A stretch of 63,434 nucleotides of DNA, taken from Dethiobacter sp. (GTDB taxonomy: Bacteria > Bacillota > Dethiobacteria > Dethiobacterales > Dethiobacteraceae). The notes under the pieces were generated by a model that searched no databases, was not told where the DNA came from, and worked only from the letters and a program-made list of their open reading frames with translations. This document shows positions 2,913 to 11,326 of the stretch, piece after piece (position 1 is the stretch's first letter; each line of letters begins with the position of its first letter). A program made the translations under genes and the position numbers. Location: the NCBI GenBank assembly GCA_018333455.1, contig JAGXTN010000049.1, positions 1 to 63,434 on the forward strand. Direction: 5' to 3'.

Positions 2913-2950
2913 CTGTAGACTAGGAAAAATCCTAGTCTACAGCTTTTTTT
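2913..2950 (+). terminator. Strong terminator after the SPW-like gene
   Basis: A perfect 12-bp stem (2913-2924 with 2931-2942), a 6-nt loop, then C and seven T residues. The stop codon of the opposing DUF166 gene lies inside the right arm, so the two convergent transcripts share this hairpin. Confidence 0.9.
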
Positions 2951-3657
2951 AGCGCATTTTCCATTCCCTCATTAAAAATCCGGCCGGAATTGTGCATTAT
3001 TGTATCTATCCCACTGTCGGTCTGCTCAAATTTCATGGAGGCCAAACATGGGTAACTCAAACACATCAAGCCTGAGGTGGGCACCGCTTTGCTGGCATCC
3101 ATCCCCTTTAAAAGACCCACAGTATATTCCGTAGAACCACAGGGTGAACCGCGTAAAACCCGAGCCTCCATAATCTGTCCACTCTCTGTCAGCGTCACGT
3201 CGAGAATCGGTTTCCCAAAATGTCGGCTGAATTCGCAAATTATTTCATTTGCATAAGATTGCACTGCTCCACCAAAACCGACAGTATTCTCATCGAGAGA
3301 GCAAAGCGGCTCAGGGAAAACGATAGTAACACCTTTCAATTCCAGCTCTTTGCGCAATTGATTGCGCAATCCAGCGGGAATCCAAGCAGCGTTGTCGATT
3401 GAGGCAATCACAGCCTTACAGCTAGTAAGTTCTGCGATTGCAGGTAACAATTGTGCAGCTTGCGGTGTTTCAGCTAAATGTAAGAGCAAATCGCAACTAG
3501 GTAGCCTATCAGGCAAAAATAATTCCGGCTCATCCACAATTATTTCCTGAATCAGCGGCACATGAAAAGTATTAACTTGCCAGTTAGGAGCTCTTTTGTG
3601 CAGATTATCCACAACTCGCTGGCCATAACCTCCCTGGACTAAAACTAATATTCTCAT
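2932..3657 (-). CDS. DUF166 family protein
   Basis: This 241-aa protein begins MRILVLVQGGYGQRVVDNL, then has LFLPDRLPSCDLLLHL, the IASIDNAAWIP segment, PEPLCSL and the C-terminal LRGSPCGSTEYTVGLL and LSYPCLASM motifs. These are typical of DUF166, a family best known from archaea and anaerobic bacteria, sometimes loosely labelled thymidylate-synthase-like. Several cysteines (PLCSL, SPCGST, YPCLAS) occur in conserved-looking positions and may bind a metal or cluster, which is inference. AGGAGGG precedes the ATG. It is a single gene, convergent with the SPW-like gene. Confidence 0.8.
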   Translation of the reverse strand: MRILVLVQGGYGQRVVDNLHKRAPNWQVNTFHVPLIQEIIVDEPELFLPDRLPSCDLLLHLAETPQAAQLLPAIAELTSCKAVIASIDNAAWIPAGLRNQLRKELELKGVTIVFPEPLCSLDENTVGFGGAVQSYANEIICEFSRHFGKPILDVTLTESGQIMEARVLRGSPCGSTEYTVGLLKGMDASKAVPTSGLMCLSYPCLASMKFEQTDSGIDTIMHNSGRIFNEGMENALKKAVD

Positions 3658-3764
3658 CTCTCATCCCTCCTAGATTACAAAATTTTAGACATTTTTACTA
3701 AATCTCCTGCTTAGAGAAAAAAATCGCAGCCAAAAAGCCCGCGCTTTTTCTAAAGGTTTTAATA

Positions 3765-3794
3765 AAGAAAAGCGTGGCGATCCACGCTTTTCTT
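3765..3794. terminator. Terminator at the 3' end of the flavocytochrome gene
   Basis: A 13-bp perfect stem, AAGAAAAGCGTGG paired with its complement, with loop CGAT. It overlaps the stop codon of the ferric-reductase-like gene (minus strand). A smaller A5GC/GCT5 hairpin lies at 3732-3749. Confidence 0.75.
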
Positions 3795-5055
3795 AAAACT
3801 CAAACAGCTCATGATGTATCCGTCTACCAGGCACCCCTTTTTCACGGAGTGTTTTCATAATTGCCAAGCTAAGCATAGGCGGCCCGCAGACAAAGAAATG
3901 ACACCTAGCCAGCTCAGGTACATATTTGTCGATCACTTTGCCGCCAATCCTGCCCTTCTCTCCCCGCCAACTCTCTTGTGCCGACATTACGTAGACAACT
4001 TTAATATTTTCCATTTCCCGTGCCATCTTGTCTAACTCTTCTTGAAAACATAATGCCTCTTCATCTTTATTGCCCCAGATAATAGTTACTTGCTTTTCAA
4101 TTCTTTCATCATAAATATAACGCAGCATGCTCATAAAAGGTGTAATCCCGATGCCGCCGGCAATGAAAGCCAGCCTATCACAGTCATAATTTAAAAAGCT
4201 AAAAATCCCATACGGCGCATCGATCAGGGCTAAATCGCCTACTTTGGTGTCTTTAATAGTAGCTGTAAAGTCGCCCAATTCCTTCGGTGTAACGGTAAGC
4301 ATCTCCCAAGTAGGACTGGAGGATATGGTAAAGGGATGCGCAGAGGAAAGTTTTCCGTTTCGCAGCAGCCTCAGATACATAAATTGTCCCGGTTGATAAG
4401 CTAATTGTTTTCCTTTAAAATAAAGGCTCCAGATATCTTTAGATTCCTGCTGAACCTTTACTACTTCATACAGATTTTTGCGGATCTTGATTTCCCGGAT
4501 AATCTTTTCGACTAGCAATAGCGCGAACAGGAGGGTAAGAATCAGCCAAATATAATAAAGCAATGACCCCGGCAGAGCGTTTCCAAAAATATGGATTAGC
4601 GCCACGGGAAACAAGATGTAATTGACTTTATGAATGTTTAGCCACAATTCATATGATAGCTTCAGTTTTTTGTGAAAAGAGGCCACAAAGGCTGTCAGCA
4701 TCAGCATCAGCAACACAGTCAGACCAGCAATGCGAAACGGCGTGCCTGCGCTAAACAAACCTTCATGCATAAACAACAGCAGTGGATGTAAAAGTAAAAA
4801 TATTAAGGCTAAGCGACCGAGCAAGCGATGAGCATGAATCATTCTATTTAATCCAAAGCCAGATTCAATCAACTTCAACCGTGAGCTTAAAACGAACTGC
4901 AAAAAGAAAAACCAAAAACCTAGCGAAGCAAAAAGCCTATTGAGCTGCCTAATAGAGAGCGGACTTTCTCCGCCAAGCAAGGCGCTACTTACCCAGGCAT
5001 AGATAATAACCGCAGTAAAAAAAGAAACTACAAGCCAAAATCTCTCTTTTTTCAA
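3793..5055 (-). CDS. Ferric-reductase-like transmembrane flavocytochrome with FAD/NAD(P) domain
   Basis: The start is TTG at 5055, 7 nt after GGAGGT, giving 420 aa; the next upstream TTG overlaps that site. The N-terminal half has about six membrane helices with paired haem-type histidines (IHAHRLLGR, FLLLHPLLL, LNIHK, ALIHIFGN). The C-terminal half is a ferredoxin-reductase module: FAD motif HPFTISSSP, nucleotide motif AGGIGITPFMSML, VCGPPMLS and a terminal HHELFEF. It should move electrons from NAD(P)H across the membrane to iron or another acceptor. No partner gene is adjacent, and a terminator closes it. Confidence 0.88.
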   Translation of the reverse strand: MKKERFWLVVSFFTAVIIYAWVSSALLGGESPLSIRQLNRLFASLGFWFFFLQFVLSSRLKLIESGFGLNRMIHAHRLLGRLALIFLLLHPLLLFMHEGLFSAGTPFRIAGLTVLLMLMLTAFVASFHKKLKLSYELWLNIHKVNYILFPVALIHIFGNALPGSLLYYIWLILTLLFALLLVEKIIREIKIRKNLYEVVKVQQESKDIWSLYFKGKQLAYQPGQFMYLRLLRNGKLSSAHPFTISSSPTWEMLTVTPKELGDFTATIKDTKVGDLALIDAPYGIFSFLNYDCDRLAFIAGGIGITPFMSMLRYIYDERIEKQVTIIWGNKDEEALCFQEELDKMAREMENIKVVYVMSAQESWRGEKGRIGGKVIDKYVPELARCHFFVCGPPMLSLAIMKTLREKGVPGRRIHHELFEF

Positions 5056-5147
5056 CGAGTCTACCTCCAAACAGTAATTATTCTATTTTTACTAGTTTAA
5101 CCTACGCTTTGCTTATTTTCTTTAACATAATCTTACAACAAAAACTA

Positions 5148-5179
5148 AATAAAAGGATGGCGCGAGCCATCCTTTTATT
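5148..5179. terminator. Strong terminator ending the CoA-ligase/symporter operon
   Basis: A 14-bp perfect stem (5148-5161 with 5166-5179), loop GCGA, with A/T-rich flanks on both sides. On the minus strand it follows the last CoA-ligase-like gene by about 30 bp. Confidence 0.9.
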
Positions 5180-5207
5180 AGTTTCCAACCTGCATAAACG
5201 ACACCCG

Positions 5208-6602
5208 TCAACTTCCGGTAGACGAGTGTGCCACAATCCTCTGTTCGATAGGATATTTTTCAAAGCCTAAGCGATCCGCCAATTCCTTGTAAGAAGTTGG
5301 CTTGATAGTGAGTGTCACGCCTAAAGCAGCTTGCAATTTTGCCTGCAGACTGCCAGACAACTCAGCCGCTTGATTCTTATCAAGAAAAGCAGCATCGATC
5401 CGCAACTGCGCAGGTTCGCCATGCAAGACTGCCTGCCATAACAGCAGGTTAGGCTCTGCTGCCAAAACGGAATATAGACTGCTTAGATTAACTGTGCGTC
5501 CCTGCTCGCCGCCCAGGTTTTTATAATCATCAAGACGCTCAATTTCACCAAGAACACGTGGAAGAGAGCGCTGACAGACAGGGCAGGGCTCATAAGTAAT
5601 ACTCTCAGCTAAGTCACCGGTGCGAAATCTGACTACACACGAACCAAGCGCATTGAGATTAGTCAAAATTAACTCGCCTCTGCCCTCAACCCCAGGCACA
5701 GCATCAAGCTCCAAAAATGCGTGGTCTGGGTAAAAATGATAGCCGCTGCCTGGCGAACATTCTGCCCAGGCAGACTTAGCCTCATTAAGGAAGTAGACTC
5801 GCTTCACCTGCCCATCCGGAGAACCGACCATGCGCAGCAACACTTCCAAACGCTTTACTTGGGCGAGCGGCACCGGACCATAACCAACAATCAGCTTATT
5901 TAAATTGGGAAACTTCAAATTAAAATGAACTGCCGTTTGCAAAAGAAACTCGGCATAACCAGGCGTGGTAAACAAAGTGGATGCTTCCATATTTTCCATG
6001 GCGGTTAAAATCTTTTCTGTGCCCAGGATCCGGCCACCGCCACTTTGCAGCACAGTTGACCCCAACTTGAGTCCCCCATAATAAACCTGCCAGAAAGACA
6101 AGTTGGGTGCGTAAGACATGGCGTTAACAATAGTATCATCCCTCGTTATACCAAGAATCTCCATCATGCGCAGCCCTGTATCACCTAAGTTTTCAATATC
6201 TGCCACCGAATAGACATACGGTGTTATTTTGCCTGTTCTGCCTGCGGAAAAAAGTAATTGATTCGTTGCATACTTTTTAGGAACAATTTCTCCCGCTGAT
6301 TTTCCTTTAAAAAGTCCAAATAAACCTCCGCCCTTAGACGAAACTGACTGTTCAGGCACTTCAAGAACATAGCGCCGGTAACTCTCAAGATTGTCGGGCT
6401 GAGACAATAAATCACTTTTAACGGTAAAAGGCTGTTTTTGCAAATCAGCAGCTGAACGGGGAACACCGGTTTCCCTCCAGCTATCACGATAAAACGGATG
6501 TCGCACAGCCACTTCACCTGCGAAAAAGTCCTGCATTTGCTGTGCCTGAAATTGTTTAATCTGTTCCGGTGTCATACGGCATAATTTTGCAAAATTCTCC
6601 AA
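5208..6602 (-). CDS. Phenylacetate-CoA ligase-like protein, catalytic lysine apparently lost
   Basis: This 464-aa adenylate-forming protein starts at TTG 6602 behind AAGGAGGG. The P-loop SAGRTGK is at residues 119-125, followed by GVPLAQ-type and FRTGDLAES motifs and a zinc-type CPVC knuckle as in PaaK. It pairs with the paralogue immediately upstream (same N-terminal MEN..KL layout). At the C-terminal A10 position, where PaaK and the paralogue have K..R.VD.R, this protein has IEQRIVAHS (about 452-460), so the acyl-adenylation lysine seems replaced by Ile. It may be inactive alone or act as a partner subunit. Last gene of its operon. Confidence 0.8.
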   Translation of the reverse strand: MENFAKLCRMTPEQIKQFQAQQMQDFFAGEVAVRHPFYRDSWRETGVPRSAADLQKQPFTVKSDLLSQPDNLESYRRYVLEVPEQSVSSKGGGLFGLFKGKSAGEIVPKKYATNQLLFSAGRTGKITPYVYSVADIENLGDTGLRMMEILGITRDDTIVNAMSYAPNLSFWQVYYGGLKLGSTVLQSGGGRILGTEKILTAMENMEASTLFTTPGYAEFLLQTAVHFNLKFPNLNKLIVGYGPVPLAQVKRLEVLLRMVGSPDGQVKRVYFLNEAKSAWAECSPGSGYHFYPDHAFLELDAVPGVEGRGELILTNLNALGSCVVRFRTGDLAESITYEPCPVCQRSLPRVLGEIERLDDYKNLGGEQGRTVNLSSLYSVLAAEPNLLLWQAVLHGEPAQLRIDAAFLDKNQAAELSGSLQAKLQAALGVTLTIKPTSYKELADRLGFEKYPIEQRIVAHSSTGS

Positions 6603-6625
6603 GTATGTTTCCCTCCTTGCGGACT

Positions 6626-8083
6626 CTACTTTTGAGGACGATTGTCAACAATTCGCTTTTCTTTTAATTCCGTTTCCATCCCTACGCGAGCCAAAACCTG
6701 TTCCGCAGGAAGAAAGATAATTTGATTGGGCGCCACTTCTGTATCACGAATAACTTTCTGCCGCAAGTCACTTTTTAATTCCTCGATGTTTACCCCGGCA
6801 GCAGGTGCAATATACAGATTAATCTCATCTAAATCAAAGGGATCATTGTTGCGTTTGCAGACTTCTACCTGCCACTCGACAACCTGAGGATGGCCCATCA
6901 TTAAGGGGAAGAAGTTATTCAAATTTACCAATGTACCCTTCACTTTTGTCAAATCAAACTCTTTAAATTCCGACTTGCGCTGCAGATTAGCAGTGATTCG
7001 CGGCACTGTGCGACCACAGTTAGGACAGGGAGTGTAAAGAATCCCGCCTTTAGCCACATCGCCGGTGCGATAACGAAGCAGGCAACTGCCGCGCCAGTCA
7101 AGCGCAGTATAGACAATTTCACCTTCTTCTCCTTCAGCCACATGTTCACCAGTCGCCGGGTCGATCATCTCAATTATCTCGGTATCCGGGTAAGTATGAT
7201 AGCCGTAAGAGTCATGTGAAGGACATTCTCCCCAGGCTAAACGGCTTTCCGTACAAGCGTACGTGGCTAAAACCTGAGGGTTTTTCGCGCCCATTTCCTG
7301 TAAAAGAGCGATAATTTTATCTTTTAGCCCCGGCGGCACACGCTCCCCGCCGAAAAGGACCTTTTGCACAGAAGAATAGTCTCTCTTCTGTTCGGCTGCT
7401 TGACGCAAAAAGTAATACGCATACCCTGGAATAAAGGAAATAACTGTTGCCTTCATCATCTCCACCGCACTCATCAGATTTTGAGTGCCCATTACCTTGC
7501 CGCCGCCGCTATGCAGAGAGGCGACGCCCATGCTATCTGCTGCGAAAAAGGCCTGCCAAAAAGCCAAATGCGGTGCATAGGGAAAAGCATTCACAAGAAT
7601 ATCTTTTTCGCTCAACGCAAAAACGTCCAGCAGACGCCTGCCAGCCTCCCGAATAGTTTCAAGGTCACGCAAGGTGTAGACAAAGGGAGTGGGCTTAGCC
7701 GTCCGACCGGTAGTAAAATGAATATGTGCCGGCTTATAATCATAAATTTTTTCGTCAACCACCTGTTTGCCACCATAAGGGGACAACTTAGCCATGTGTC
7801 CATATTTTTCTGAAACTTCTTCGTCAGGGCGAATAATAAAGTCACGATGTTTGGCTGGCTCTGCGTCTGTGGGCGCGATGTCTTCCTTGTAGGTAAACGG
7901 CAGATGAACTAAATCCTGGACCCCTTTAAACTTATAGGGGTCCAGTTTAAGCTCCTGAAAAATACGCCTATAATGTGGACTGTAGGGATAAATTTGATTC
8001 ACTATGAAGGCCCGCAGTTTGCGATCCTGCATTTGACGAACCTCTGCCCACGGTTTTTTGCTAAGTTTTTCCCAATTTTCCAT
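6626..8083 (-). CDS. Phenylacetate-CoA ligase family protein (AMP-forming)
   Basis: This 485-aa member of the PaaK branch of acyl-CoA synthetases carries the P-loop TTGRTAKPTP at 124-133, YRTGD at 338-342, the CPNC zinc knuckle at 353-356 and an intact A10 segment, LKEKRIVDNR, with the expected lysine near residue 474. Such enzymes adenylate a carboxylic acid and transfer it to CoA. It lies 15 bp downstream of a sodium:solute symporter and 23 bp upstream of a paralogue, suggesting that the imported solute is a carboxylate activated on entry. The acid is unknown; phenylacetate or another aryl acid is only a family default. Confidence 0.85.
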   Translation of the reverse strand: MENWEKLSKKPWAEVRQMQDRKLRAFIVNQIYPYSPHYRRIFQELKLDPYKFKGVQDLVHLPFTYKEDIAPTDAEPAKHRDFIIRPDEEVSEKYGHMAKLSPYGGKQVVDEKIYDYKPAHIHFTTGRTAKPTPFVYTLRDLETIREAGRRLLDVFALSEKDILVNAFPYAPHLAFWQAFFAADSMGVASLHSGGGKVMGTQNLMSAVEMMKATVISFIPGYAYYFLRQAAEQKRDYSSVQKVLFGGERVPPGLKDKIIALLQEMGAKNPQVLATYACTESRLAWGECPSHDSYGYHTYPDTEIIEMIDPATGEHVAEGEEGEIVYTALDWRGSCLLRYRTGDVAKGGILYTPCPNCGRTVPRITANLQRKSEFKEFDLTKVKGTLVNLNNFFPLMMGHPQVVEWQVEVCKRNNDPFDLDEINLYIAPAAGVNIEELKSDLRQKVIRDTEVAPNQIIFLPAEQVLARVGMETELKEKRIVDNRPQK

Positions 8084-8097
8084 GCATCAGCACTCCC

Positions 8098-9738
8098 TTA
8101 ACCAATGACCGAGAAAATGTCATAAAGTGTGAATATCGACAGAATACATAAAATGGAGAGAATAAGAATAGTTATCGGCAAAGCCTTGCCATTATAACGT
8201 TCTTCCCTGTAATCGCCCCAACCATGCATCATATCAACCGTTGCTTTAACCTCAGCCGGCGGCTCCTTCGTGAACCATGAAACAACAATGGTCACAATAA
8301 AAGTAATGGGAATGCTAAAAGCGATAACTTTTACCCAACCCAGCGGACCGTAGAGAAAACGCGAAATCATCGTCGCTTCCCAACCAACAATTTCAATCAA
8401 CACATACGGAATGAAGCTGGTCAAAAAGCCCACAATCATCCCGGCGCCGGCGCCTTCTTTAGTTGTGCGCTTCCACCAAATACCCAGCACCATCGGCACA
8501 CCAAAAGCGGCACCTGCAATTCCAAACGCCCACATAATAGTGACCAGAATAAACTCAGGCGGTCGTAAGGAAAGCAGTGTCACGACAACTCCCACCACTA
8601 ACATCACTTTAGTAGCCATTTTAAGCAATTTCTCAGGACTTGTGTTTGGCCTAAGCGACCCGTACAAGTCATGCACAATACCTGTGCCCATAATCATCAA
8701 TAATCCCGCTACGGTAGAAATGCCAGCTGCCAGCGCGCCGCCCACAGTTATTGCCAGCCAAGCATTGCCCGCAATAGCATCTGTCAGGATAAAAACGAGC
8801 TTATCATAATCAGCTACGGCAACTTGCACGCCTTGGCTCGCCACATAATATACGCCTGCAAAACCCAAGGCGTAGACACTGGTGTTAACAAACCCCACTA
8901 GGAATGTGCAAAATACAGCGCTCCAGCGAGCTTCCCGAGCATCACGCACAGTAAAGAAACGCATTACAAAATGCGGCAGACCAATAATTCCAAAAAAAGT
9001 GCCGAGAAACACAGCAATATACCAAACAGGGTGGACAATGAAGGGGAAGAAGAAATGAGGCGTAACGGCAAGCATGGCCGGCACCATTTCCCCATAACCA
9101 AGGGGCGGGAACCACCAACCTGCAGCGCCTAATGCCCGTAAAATAATCATCACCGGCACAAATATGGCAAAAAGCATAACCACACTTTGGAAGGATTGGC
9201 TATAAGTCACACCGTACATCCCTCCCACCATAACATATAAAGTAACTACTAGGCCACCGATTAAAATTCCGTAAACTTGCGGCAGTCCCAACAAAACTTG
9301 AAAGATAATCCCTATGCCCTTAATGTTAGCGATTAAATAGAGAATGCTAACTATTAACATAATAACTACTGCTAATATGCGCAGGTTCTTACTATAGAAT
9401 CGCTCACCGATGAAAGCCATGGTCGTAAAAGATTTGTGCCTGCGTAAATAAGGAGCAGCCAGCACCAACATGCCAATAAATGATGCGGTAAAAGCCGCAT
9501 ACAGAGCGATTGCCAGATAAAAACCATGGAAAATCAATGCGGTGAGGCCTAAAAATGTGGTCAGGCTCAGCGAGAGCGAAACCATGGCCAAACCATTGTT
9601 TACTGCGCCAATGGAACGACCTGCCACAAAATAGTCCGAGACATTTCTTGTCATCTTCCGTCCCCAAAAACCAAAGAAAACGGAAATCGCTAGCACAAGA
9701 ACGGAAACTATTATTCCCTCAATAAAAATACCAGACAT
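8098..9738 (-). CDS. Sodium:solute symporter (SSS family)
   Basis: This 546-aa protein has about 13 hydrophobic helices. The N-terminus shows VSDYFVAGRSIGAVNNGLA and SLSLTTFLGL, and the middle GVTYSQSFQSVVM and AAGISTVAGLLMIMGT, typical of SSS/PutP-like Na+ symporters. These couple Na+ entry to uptake of organic acids, amino acids or similar solutes. GGAGGTG sits before the ATG. It is preceded by a small two-helix gene 21 bp upstream and followed by two CoA-ligase-like genes, so a carboxylate is the most economical substrate guess. Confidence 0.9.
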   Translation of the reverse strand: MSGIFIEGIIVSVLVLAISVFFGFWGRKMTRNVSDYFVAGRSIGAVNNGLAMVSLSLSLTTFLGLTALIFHGFYLAIALYAAFTASFIGMLVLAAPYLRRHKSFTTMAFIGERFYSKNLRILAVVIMLIVSILYLIANIKGIGIIFQVLLGLPQVYGILIGGLVVTLYVMVGGMYGVTYSQSFQSVVMLFAIFVPVMIILRALGAAGWWFPPLGYGEMVPAMLAVTPHFFFPFIVHPVWYIAVFLGTFFGIIGLPHFVMRFFTVRDAREARWSAVFCTFLVGFVNTSVYALGFAGVYYVASQGVQVAVADYDKLVFILTDAIAGNAWLAITVGGALAAGISTVAGLLMIMGTGIVHDLYGSLRPNTSPEKLLKMATKVMLVVGVVVTLLSLRPPEFILVTIMWAFGIAGAAFGVPMVLGIWWKRTTKEGAGAGMIVGFLTSFIPYVLIEIVGWEATMISRFLYGPLGWVKVIAFSIPITFIVTIVVSWFTKEPPAEVKATVDMMHGWGDYREERYNGKALPITILILSILCILSIFTLYDIFSVIG

Positions 9739-9759
9739 AGCGCACCTCCCCTTTAAGTC

Positions 9760-10020
9760 TTAATTTTCTCGTTTGTCAATCCCGTCAAGCACTAAAGTCC
9801 AGATAGCGCCTAGCAGAGTTGCGCCCAGCCAACTCCCCATAATCAGCAGCACATAATGCAGAGGCAAGCCAAAAATACTAGTATGCGGCGTGAACTGTGG
9901 CGCAGGACCAAAGAAAGCATCTTTACCCAGCACGAAAAAGATACTAATAAAACCACCTGTGAGAGACAGTAGCGTAAAAACAATCCCCGTTACCCAAGCC
10001 TCCCGCTTGTAATCTTTCAT
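9760..10020 (-). CDS. Small membrane protein paired with the symporter
   Basis: The ATG at 10020 follows GGAGGTGA and gives 86 aa; an upstream start at 10056 would include the ribosome site itself. There are two membrane helices (WVTGIVFTLLSLTGGFISIFFVLG and LHYVLLIMGSWLGATLLGAIWTLVL) and a charged tail, DGIDKREN. Position and size match the small subunit that often precedes SSS symporters (DUF4212/DUF3311-like), though I cannot assign the exact Pfam. It probably assembles with the transporter encoded 21 bp downstream. Confidence 0.7.
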   Translation of the reverse strand: MKDYKREAWVTGIVFTLLSLTGGFISIFFVLGKDAFFGPAPQFTPHTSIFGLPLHYVLLIMGSWLGATLLGAIWTLVLDGIDKREN

Positions 10021-10056
10021 TTTCTCACCTCCCTCCTTGAATTTAACTCTTGTCAT

Positions 10057-10345
10057 AATTTAACTATTTTTTGCCTGCTACCTAAGTAGTGCAATTATTC
10101 GTAAAAGTTATTCCATATCAAAAGTAGATATTCCTGCAAGCAAGGTTGACAATTCGAAAAATTTATTAAATATAATTATTTATGATAATAACATTTTACA
10201 GAAGAGTACTTTCCTTAATAATTTTGGCTGTGTGGGCTATATAGTGTAAACCAATTTAGCCAGAATCGAATCACCCTTGGCGTGTGCAGTTAACAATATC
10301 GCTCAGCAACGGTTATTATATACGTGTTAGCATCACACGTTTTTG
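10057..10345. other. AT-rich promoter region between symporter operon and tRNA-Leu terminator
   Basis: About 290 bp without a credible gene. It holds a minus-strand promoter candidate for the symporter operon and, on the plus strand, TTGACA (10146-10151) and TATAAT (10171-10176) separated by 19 bp, with no plus-strand gene before 10626. Confidence 0.5.
10094..10121 (-). promoter_or_regulatory. Candidate promoter of the symporter operon
   Basis: On the minus strand TTGATA is followed after 16 bp by AATAAT, about 70-100 bp ahead of the small symporter gene. Plausible SigA-type, but in AT-rich sequence, so only moderately informative. Confidence 0.35.
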
Positions 10346-10352
10346 CAAAAAC

Positions 10353-10381
10353 AAAAAAGCCGTGGAGCATTGTCCAAGGCT
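10353..10381 (-). terminator. Terminator of tRNA-Leu
   Basis: On the minus strand AGCCTTGGA pairs with TCCACGGCT (one mismatch in nine), then T5GT5. It begins 14 nt after the encoded CCA of the tRNA. Confidence 0.8.
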
Positions 10382-10394
10382 TACAGCGTTAACT

Positions 10395-10478
10395 TGGTGT
10401 CGGGGACGGGACTTGAACCCGTATGTCGTAGACACACGCCCCTCAAGCGTGCGCGTCTGCCAGTTCCGCCACCCCGAC
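10395..10478 (-). tRNA. tRNA-Leu, anticodon GAG
   Basis: The 84-nt minus-strand gene has acceptor arms GTCGGGG/CCCCGAC, a D arm with GGCAGACGC, anticodon stem CACGC/GCGTG around loop TTGAGGG (anticodon GAG, reading CUC/CUU), a long class II variable arm, the T loop GGTTCAAGTCCC and an encoded 3' CCA at 10395-10397. It is monocistronic, with its own promoter and terminator. Confidence 0.95.
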
Positions 10479-10501
10479 ACGATTACAGTTTTCCGAACAT
10501 C

Positions 10502-10530
10502 AGTGTAACATAATCAAAGACAAAACGCAA
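10502..10530 (-). promoter_or_regulatory. Candidate promoter of tRNA-Leu
   Basis: On the minus strand TTGCGT and TACACT are separated by 17 bp. The -10 lies about 24 bp before the mature 5' end at 10478, a normal leader length for a tRNA gene. Confidence 0.5.
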
Positions 10531-10566
10531 GGCAGATTTTACACAATTCGCATCAGGGGTGTCTCC

Positions 10567-10595
10567 TTGACGCTAAAGATATAAAGTGCTATGCT
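10567..10595 (+). promoter_or_regulatory. Promoter of the VapBC-type operon
   Basis: TTGACG and TATGCT with a 17-bp spacer and an extended -10 (TG one base before TATGCT), ending 31 bp before the antitoxin ATG. The 16-nt core AAAGTGCTATGCTCTG recurs at the DUF2975 promoter (29973-29988). Confidence 0.7.
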
Positions 10596-10625
10596 CTGGT
10601 TAGAGTAATTATGGAGGTGTATTTG

Positions 10626-10895
10626 ATGGAATCAAGCAGCACCAAGCAAAAAATCAGTATTTATTTAGATGACCCAGAGTTGCGCCGAAGGTTGAAAGTG
10701 GCTGCAGCAATGCGTGATATCAGTATCAGTGCCTTTTGCGAAGAGGCTATTAGGGAAAAACTGCAAAAAGAAGAAGTAAATACAGCCCTTGAGGCTGCGA
10801 GACGGGCGGCTCGTCGCTTAGACGAGAAGCGGGATAAACTCGGCTCGCTGGACGTGCAAACATGGGAGCTAGTGAAGGAGGGGCGTCGGCGATGA
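10626..10895 (+). CDS. Ribbon-helix-helix antitoxin of a VapBC-like module
   Basis: The ATG at 10626 lies 6 nt after GGAGGTG, giving 89 aa; an ATG at 10611 overlaps that site. The N-terminal KQKISIYLDDPELRRRLKVAAAMRDISISAFCEEAIREKL is a typical Arc/CopG-type ribbon-helix-helix, followed by a basic helical tail (ALEAARRAARRLDEKRDK) that would cap the toxin. Its stop overlaps the toxin start as ATGA, the usual translational coupling in type II systems. It is expected to neutralise the PIN nuclease and repress its own promoter. Confidence 0.8.
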   Translation: MESSSTKQKISIYLDDPELRRRLKVAAAMRDISISAFCEEAIREKLQKEEVNTALEAARRAARRLDEKRDKLGSLDVQTWELVKEGRRR

Positions 10896-11326
10896 AAGGT
10901 GCGGTGGTAGATGCTTCCGTATCCTTAAAATGGCTATTTAATGATGAAGTAGGTGTTTCGCAAGCGCAGGCTTTACGTGATAGCTACCTTGCTGACCCAA
11001 TAAGGTTTCCACTTTTTGCCCCATCCCTCTGGCGATATGAAGTTGCAAATGGTTTAGCGGTTGCCGCCAGACGAGGTCTCTTAGAACATGATTTAGCCCG
11101 AGACGCTCTGATGGATCTTTTGACGCTCGGAGTAAAGGTGGTTGAAACTGAAAGCCTACGTGTTTTAGATCTGGCCTTGACCTATGGCATTGCCGTATAC
11201 GACGCTGCATATTTGGCAGTAGCAGAGGAAACAAGCAGTATTTTATGGACTGCCGACAGGCCGTTTTATGGCGCTATGCAAGGGAAGCGACAAGCTGTCT
11301 GTTGGATTGAGGACTGGACGTATTAA
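10892..11326 (+). CDS. PIN-domain ribonuclease toxin (VapC-like)
   Basis: The start is ATG 10892, behind GGAGGGG and overlapping the antitoxin stop (ATGA), giving 144 aa. Conserved PIN acidic residues are visible: VVDASVSLKWL (Asp6), WRYEVANGL (Glu), VYDAAYLAVAEE (Asp) and TADRPF (Asp near the end). PIN toxins cleave tRNA or rRNA when released from the antitoxin. All four acidic positions are present, so the toxin looks intact. It is convergent with panD, 122 bp away. Confidence 0.87.
   Translation: MKGAVVDASVSLKWLFNDEVGVSQAQALRDSYLADPIRFPLFAPSLWRYEVANGLAVAARRGLLEHDLARDALMDLLTLGVKVVETESLRVLDLALTYGIAVYDAAYLAVAEETSSILWTADRPFYGAMQGKRQAVCWIEDWTY

Follow-up and report, generated by a model that had tools for sequence, protein, structure and literature searches.

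Why would an operon keep two PaaK-like adenylate-forming ligases side by side when one of the two has lost the lysine of motif A10? The question is raised by four consecutive minus-strand genes in a window of 63,434 nucleotides, which is the whole stretch of DNA analysed (contig JAGXTN010000049.1 of Dethiobacter sp., class Dethiobacteria, phylum Bacillota). From 5' to 3', they encode a small membrane partner, an SSS-family symporter and two ligases, here named LigA and LigB. An earlier reading of the letters alone (the sequence-only reading) had described this operon, and all four genes lie on the minus strand where it had placed them. The best explanation, which has about an even chance of being correct, is that the operon imports and activates a carboxylate and that LigB serves as the non-catalytic subunit in a heterodimer with LigA. 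Observed directly are the operon, the conserved pairing of the ligase genes, the loss of the lysine and decay of the C-terminal domain (C-domain) in LigB, purifying selection, and a shared PaaK fold, the last as a prediction. A catalytic ligase paired with a lysine-less one would be an unusual arrangement for the PaaK-like family.

The two ligase genes occur together far beyond chance, in an order and on a strand that are constant wherever they are visible. A survey of the class covered 97 genomes, a match at E 1e-45 or better being counted as positive. Thirty-six genomes were positive, and both genes are present in 32 of these, so the pairing next to an SSS symporter for which the sequence-only reading had suggested a search is indeed seen elsewhere. 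The four exceptions stand at contig ends: in two (G019, G022) the contig breaks off within LigA or directly behind it, with the first 62 LigB residues visible in G022, and two (G461, G465) start just before LigB. In a survey of the phylum (398 genomes), 29 genomes matched the LigB profile with an E-value no higher than 1e-30: six carry both ligase genes (E 9.2e-96 or lower), and the matches in the remaining 23 are to ordinary PaaK-like genes (E 1.5e-35 or weaker). In named genomes, the LigA profile recovered 64 loci, 39 of the Bacillota cassette type and 25 with a solo LigA. LigB adjoins LigA in 36 of the 39, counting L103, whose LigA was masked by a longer antisense open reading frame (ORF) in simple ORF calling and is intact on re-reading; L087, L140 and L146 end at a contig edge. 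Among called Bacillota-type loci, the gap between the two genes has a median of 29 bases, and they share a strand in 35/35. No LigA ORF was called in L128 by the simple ORF caller. Many of the 64 loci are contigs already present in an earlier locus set, so the surveys cannot be counted as independent.

The loss of the lysine is general in LigB. Motifs were tallied over 101 rows: 34 LigB (alignment A4, comprising the window and 33 of 36 LigB ORFs, with the partial L091, L093 and L094 left out), 22 LigA and 20 solo LigA-like proteins (A5, comprising the window, 21 of 33 LigA ORFs and 20 of 29 solo-list ORFs, the nine omitted solo-list ORFs being partial) and 25 ordinary PaaKs (A6, 25 of 32 ORFs). 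Alignments A1 and A3, the latter the query of the 64-locus survey, do not enter the tallies; in them the L042 row is cut, at the C-terminus and the N-terminus, respectively. The A10 lysine is present in every LigA (22/22), solo LigA (20/20) and ordinary PaaK (25/25) and in no LigB (0/34), where the column holds T in 26 rows, V in 3, R in 3, I in 1 and S in 1. Within the window, the LigA-LigB profile alignment is ungapped through the A10 region and sets Ile452 opposite Lys474. This bears out the earlier claims that the second ligase has isoleucine at A10 and that one ligase possesses the lysine and the other does not. The D and R that follow were also said to be missing; they are replaced in the window LigB (Ala458, Ser460), but each is kept in 27 of the 34 LigB rows, making their loss local and that of the lysine general.

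LigB is under purifying selection, although looser than LigA. By the Nei-Gojobori method in three genomes of the genus, the ratio of non-synonymous to synonymous substitution rates (dN/dS) is 0.080–0.089 for LigB, 0.047–0.061 for the symporter and 0.021–0.031 for LigA, and LigB dN is three to four times LigA dN. LigB frames are open and full-length, at 444–484 aa, in 33 loci. A chance or mis-framed ORF was considered and is ruled out by the full length of LigB in 34 aligned rows and by the purifying selection.

Constraint is unevenly spread within LigB. In the same 19 loci, with both proteins aligned, mean pairwise identity in the N-terminal domain (N-domain) is 0.753 for LigA and 0.547 for LigB, and in the C-domain 0.735 for LigA and 0.350 for LigB; 52 of 122 C-domain columns are invariant in LigA and 1 of 122 in LigB. 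Because LigB identity is so much lower in the C-domain than in the N-domain, and that of LigA is similar in both, the catalytic C-domain of LigB is, by this measure, released from constraint far more than its N-domain. Both A8 and A10 are located there. The A8 glycine is found in 5 of 34 LigB rows, and the A8 region is partly deleted in the LigB of L090, L106 and L108. This decay of A8 and A10 therefore favours a non-catalytic partner and disfavours a surviving thioesterification activity. The LigB of L090, L093, L106 and L108 form a divergent clade, in which A8 is part-deleted where complete (L090, L106, L108) and LigA is typical. The LigB of L099 has lost the P-loop and A5 Glu too; it lies in a second symporter-LigA-LigB cassette (L041:1413-12790, L041 and L099 being the same region).

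LigA and LigB, at 33% identity to one another, are on predicted structures members of the PaaK-like branch of the ANL superfamily with a full-length PaaK fold, C-terminal domain included. Their AlphaFold2 models have mean predicted local distance difference test (pLDDT) scores of 85.6 (LigA) and 88.9 (LigB), and the structures that each resembles most are ordinary PaaKs, matched along the entire chain. Against PaaK1 (2y27, with ATP), LigA gives Z 35.7 over 412 residues at 3.0 A and LigB Z 37.8 over 400 residues at 2.4 A; profile-profile matches to PaaK have a probability score of 100 for each. Curated models capture the two poorly. AMP-binding PF00501 is matched by LigA (55.3 bits, cut-off 29.9), with LigB under it at 16.1 bits; no NCBIfam cut-off is reached by either, the PaaK equivalog TIGR02155 (cut-off 646.3 bits) giving 92.5 for LigA and 53.4 for LigB. 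The PaaK-type C-terminal domain PF14535 has no match in LigA or LigB at 0.1; an ordinary PaaK, as control, scores 125.4 bits, and the solo LigA of L129 scores 17.9 against a cut-off of 25.

Compared with PaaK1 (2Y27) and PaaK2 (2Y4O) of Burkholderia cenocepacia, the two proteins are thus alike in full-length fold, domain order and A5 and A7 residues, and LigA also in the A10 lysine. They are unlike them in identity (~22–25%), in the A8 region, in the lack of a PF14535 match and in the P-loop, where both carry an Arg. PaaK has SSGTTGKP, LigA TTGRTAKP and the window LigB SAGRTGKI, with the Arg at position 127 in the window LigA and 122 in the window LigB. This Arg replaces the PaaK Thr in 42/42 LigA and solo rows and 33/34 LigB rows (75/76 together), and Thr is present in 25/25 PaaKs. 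The canonical A3 motif (S/T)(S/T/G)G(S/T)TGxPK, as given in PMC8388817, is found in neither LigA nor LigB. Consequently, of the earlier statement that LigB retains its P-loop and FRTGD, the second part stands, FRTGD being present, whereas the P-loop is non-canonical, in LigA likewise. A second relative is the 2-hydroxyisobutyryl-CoA ligase HCL (6HDW and others), with Z 33.6–34.0 for LigA and 32.1–32.8 for LigB. It is a PaaK-type ligase for an aliphatic acid and forms a dimer with a shared sheet. Unlike the system here, HCL is one catalytic gene, and the accessible sections of its description contain no lysine-less paralogue (PMC8388817). A CxxC element (LigA 353–356, LigB 340–343) aligned with PaaK cysteines is present in all LigA, solo and LigB rows; in the PaaK-family protein NatL2, a structural zinc is bound partly via cysteines (PMC7204872).

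The tree was built from 72 of the 101 tally rows (19/34 LigB, 17/22 LigA, 20/20 solo, 16/25 PaaK). LigA, solo LigA and LigB form one clade against ordinary PaaK, with a support of 100 in the Shimodaira-Hasegawa-like approximate likelihood ratio test (SH-aLRT). Within it, LigB is the sister group of the other two combined (SH-aLRT 87 for LigB, 95 for LigA plus solo). A Bacillota-only duplication, with LigA and LigB as one clade, is not rejected by the approximately unbiased test (p-AU 0.079), and the deep position of LigB may reflect long-branch pull, since LigB is the faster branch.

In the mechanism that best accommodates these observations, the symporter and its small subunit would import an aliphatic monocarboxylate, presumably of fatty-acid type. 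LigA would adenylate it in a PaaK-type active site with Lys474 and probably hand the acyl group to coenzyme A (CoA). LigB would be a duplicated PaaK-type subunit, unable to adenylate alone, and the LigA:LigB heterodimer would stand in for the PaaK homodimer, with LigB steadying the P-loop side of LigA. The retained N-domain pocket of LigB might sense a nucleotide or acyl ligand. A heterodimer is the best reading because PaaK needs dimerization: its biological unit is a dimer (PMC4498308), an extra N-terminal microdomain isolates the P-loop and makes dimerization necessary, and in the HCL dimer a seven-stranded sheet is joined across subunits (PMC8388817). PaaK differs in being a homodimer of active subunits. 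An analogy is offered by PaaA and PaaC of the Paa monooxygenase, a catalytic and a structural subunit that share a fold and form a heterodimer, although these are unrelated diiron proteins; in the passages of PMC4498308 consulted, 'heterodimer' refers to PaaA-PaaC. A literature search, outside whose scope lay most subscription papers and all preprints, found no pseudoenzyme adenylate-forming heterodimers or non-catalytic ANL subunits, nor any account of a pair like LigA and LigB.

Several observations weigh against this explanation. LigB keeps the A5 Glu in 33/34 rows, the A7 Asp in 34/34 and a GRT P-loop in 33/34, which on these alignments is more of a pocket than a pure scaffold needs. A LigB-profile search of 20 solo genomes found one match in each, namely LigA, and no LigB in 20/20; the family is therefore in principle independent of LigB. 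In the tree, LigB lies outside LigA, as the sister group of LigA and its solo homologues together. The AlphaFold2 models of LigA and LigB are single chains. Lastly, a conserved basic residue three positions before the A10 site of LigB could be a relocated lysine.

LigB might be non-catalytic yet act outside a complex with LigA, as a free nucleotide or acyl sensor, or as a regulator or anchor of the symporter. In favour of this, the N-domain nucleotide residues are kept while the catalytic C-domain decays, and in all loci where ORFs are called and the DNA extends far enough, the symporter comes before the pair. However, since the PaaK-type fold dimerizes (PMC8388817), a paralogue made alongside LigA should encounter it, and every complete locus has the two together. 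We therefore consider this unlikely.

A heterodimer could also be arranged differently, with LigA and LigB swapping C-terminal segments so that Lys474 of LigA serves the retained LigB pocket. This is a live rival because NatL2 provides a precedent: NatL2, AjiA1 and ClxA are, like PaaK, dimers of this family, and a NatL2 subunit depends on its neighbour, the Lys418 of the other monomer contacting the alpha-phosphate (PMC7204872). The A3, A5 and A7 residues kept by LigB would fit such a pocket. NatL2 is, however, a C-terminally extended homodimer whose product is an ester, whereas LigA and LigB are two genes. Solo LigA carries a lysine itself and occurs unpartnered, a full swap would strip the lysine from the far better conserved pocket of LigA, and the LigB of L099 has neither P-loop nor A5 Glu to be served. 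The LigA model aligns to PaaK1 through its C-terminus, although a single-chain model cannot reveal a swap. Taken together, these points make the trans arrangement rather improbable.

Less probable still is that LigB is itself an adenylating ligase, whether full or partial, with another substrate range, in which Lys449 (or an Arg) is the relocated catalytic lysine. In its favour, the Lys449 column is basic in LigB (K 28, R 5, S 1; n = 34), so that by sequence it might hold a relocated lysine, and A5 and A7 are kept. On the other side, the column is not strictly conserved, and A8 is decayed. Lys449 lies three residues before Ile452, opposite Thr471 of LigA in the ungapped register; in the LigB-PaaK profile alignment, which is instead gapped there, the PaaK lysine falls opposite Phe447. 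The structural alignments to PaaK1 end at LigB 460 and LigA 482, each against PaaK1 residue 430; if the last eight residues are taken as ungapped, the models would put both Ile452 and Lys474 on PaaK1 Lys422, which in PDB 2Y27 contacts the alpha-phosphate of the same monomer (PMC7204872). The comparison with the PaaK structure, a check that had been proposed beforehand, thus does not bring Lys449 to the A10 site, and neither profile register does so. As the A10 lysine itself, Lys449 was rejected as unlikely.

The sequence-only reading had also suggested that LigB might perform the thioesterification half-reaction only, here with LigA supplying the acyl-adenylate. In other ANL enzymes, the second half-reaction is largely unaffected when just the A10 lysine is lost (PMC11255334). 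The region needed for that half-reaction is A8, however, and this is what has decayed or been deleted in LigB; L099 has lost the P-loop and A5 Glu as well. The suggestion fares badly and is very unlikely. That LigB is a decaying pseudogene, as its raised dN might hint, is scarcely credible given its dN/dS of 0.08–0.09, its full-length frames and its retention in every complete locus.

A clue to the substrate comes from the solo LigA loci, whose hosts are Woesearchaeota, another Nanoarchaeota-named record, Kerfeldbacteria, Parcubacteria and other Patescibacteria; a few further solo-LigA bacteria are placed among the patescibacterial and archaeal ones in the tree. Aligned solo LigA (n = 20) are 43–52% identical to the window LigA, and neither symporter nor LigB adjoins them in the solo loci. 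A PlsC-type acyltransferase directly adjoins solo LigA on the same strand in 12 of the 24 loci with a called LigA (11 of 12 bacterial, 1 of 12 archaeal), and PF01553 was confirmed in four of these neighbours. The loci are L117, L118, L124, L126, L129, L130, L132, L136, L143, L144 and L145, and L115 of Woesearchaeota. Eight solo bacterial genomes were searched throughout: in seven, 19 of 20 PF01553 matches lie beside LigA, and the eighth (L138) has none. The same eight, which may be incomplete, gave a ketoacyl synthase match in two and CoaE above cut-off in none. A patatin-like phospholipase occurs in 3 of 25 solo loci (family checked on two proteins) and an H+-pyrophosphatase-type gene in 10 of 25 (checked on one).

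Since solo LigA adjoins nearly all PlsC-type acyltransferases of Patescibacteria-type genomes, this context points to scavenged fatty acids as what it activates, with CoA or another molecule as acceptor. Against a fatty-acid substrate, no PlsC is present in the stretch read at 12 of 24 solo loci (11 archaeal and the bacterial L138). For the Bacillota pair, an aliphatic carboxylate would be the simplest substrate to assume. This agrees with the beta-oxidation-like genes that adjoin the second cassette in L041, which encode an MFE-2-type hydratase, a short-chain dehydrogenase, a thiolase and an enoyl-CoA hydratase. Bacteria of the candidate phyla radiation (CPR) are described as having no complete lipid synthesis, the source of activated acyl groups being left open; Nealsonbacteria genomes screened had PlsY and PlsC and no PlsX, and no enzymes dependent on acyl carrier protein (ACP) were identified in CPR genomes (PMC7242380). 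No paper among the matches listed links a PaaK-like ligase to PlsC in CPR bacteria. A bolder proposal, offered tentatively as a possibility, is that LigA represents an unrecognised acyl-activating family, with a TTGRTA-type P-loop and a GMETELKEKRI tail as its hallmarks. The patescibacterial enzyme would act alone, charging scavenged fatty acids for PlsC-type acyltransferases and so supplying the activation step reported missing; in Bacillota the same enzyme would be in an obligate heterodimer with its lysine-less paralogue, coupled to a sodium symporter.

The transport half of the operon resembles the VC_2705-type pair (TIGR03648/TIGR03647), in which a small membrane partner also precedes a large SSS protein, and differs from it in that both window proteins score under the curated cut-offs. 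The symporter matches PF00474 (174.5 bits, cut-off 22.8), and its best NCBIfam model is TIGR03648 (273.2 bits, under 320.75). The small partner has weak sub-cut-off matches to TIGR03647 (16.3 bits, cut-off 26.05) and PF13937, DUF4212 (16.7 bits, cut-off 30). In 30/30 loci of the LigA survey with both called, the small gene and the SSS gene share a strand, with the small gene on the 5' side. For DUF4212 symporters, the literature search, with the scope given above, found no paper.

Features of the operon are collected in Table 1. By eye, a purine-rich, ribosome-binding-like stretch precedes all four starts. The start of the small gene proposed earlier, the ATG at 10020, is better than that of the longest ORF because ribosome-binding-like GGAGGGAGG lies upstream of it and because its closest homologue, in locus L035, likewise has 86 aa. 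The promoter candidate is weak, since 17 sigma-70-like sites were counted and shuffled sequences give 9.1 on average. The hairpin following LigB has the longest stem among 11 terminator-like sites in 5000–10800, and because of it the next gene, a ferric-reductase-like flavoprotein (3793–5070), is probably a separate transcription unit.

Table 1. Positions of the operon's genes, key codons and candidate signals, in window coordinates
Feature	Position	Strand	Details
Small membrane partner of symporter	9760..10020	minus	86 aa; ORF possibly from 10056
SSS-family symporter	8098..9738	minus	546 aa; PF00474
LigA, PaaK-like adenylate-forming ligase	6626..8083	minus	485 aa; A10 Lys474
LigA P-loop (A3), residues 124–131 TTGRTAKP	7691..7714	minus	Arg127 replaces PaaK Thr
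LigA A10 lysine codon (Lys474)	6662..6664	minus	profile alignment to PaaK GKAKRV and row tally
LigB, PaaK-like paralogue without A10 lysine	5208..6602	minus	464 aa; TTG start
LigB Lys449 codon, candidate substitute lysine	5256..5258	minus	opposite LigA Thr471
LigB Ile452 codon at A10 position	5247..5249	minus	ungapped LigA register; structural range ends agree
Intrinsic-terminator-like hairpin directly 3' of LigB	5148..5179	minus	14 pairs and T-tract; consensus match only
Sigma-70-like promoter candidate upstream of small gene	10094..10121	minus	10/12 matches

The flavoprotein is accompanied by a DUF166 protein in the window (2932–5070 for the two); of the two same-genus loci read, both have the flavoprotein after LigB and one has DUF166. 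On the other side of the operon, overlapping plus-strand ORFs at 10611–11326 encode a ribbon-helix-helix-like protein and then a PIN-domain protein, a toxin-antitoxin-like pair, with a tRNA-Leu(gag) gene close by (10395–10478).

If LigA and LigB do form a heteromer, LigB would be a pseudoenzyme partner within the PaaK branch, where dimerization already shapes the active site, and the pair would be a natural system in which to ask what a second subunit contributes. Solo LigA, in turn, is a testable candidate for fatty-acid activation in lipid-scavenging Patescibacteria.

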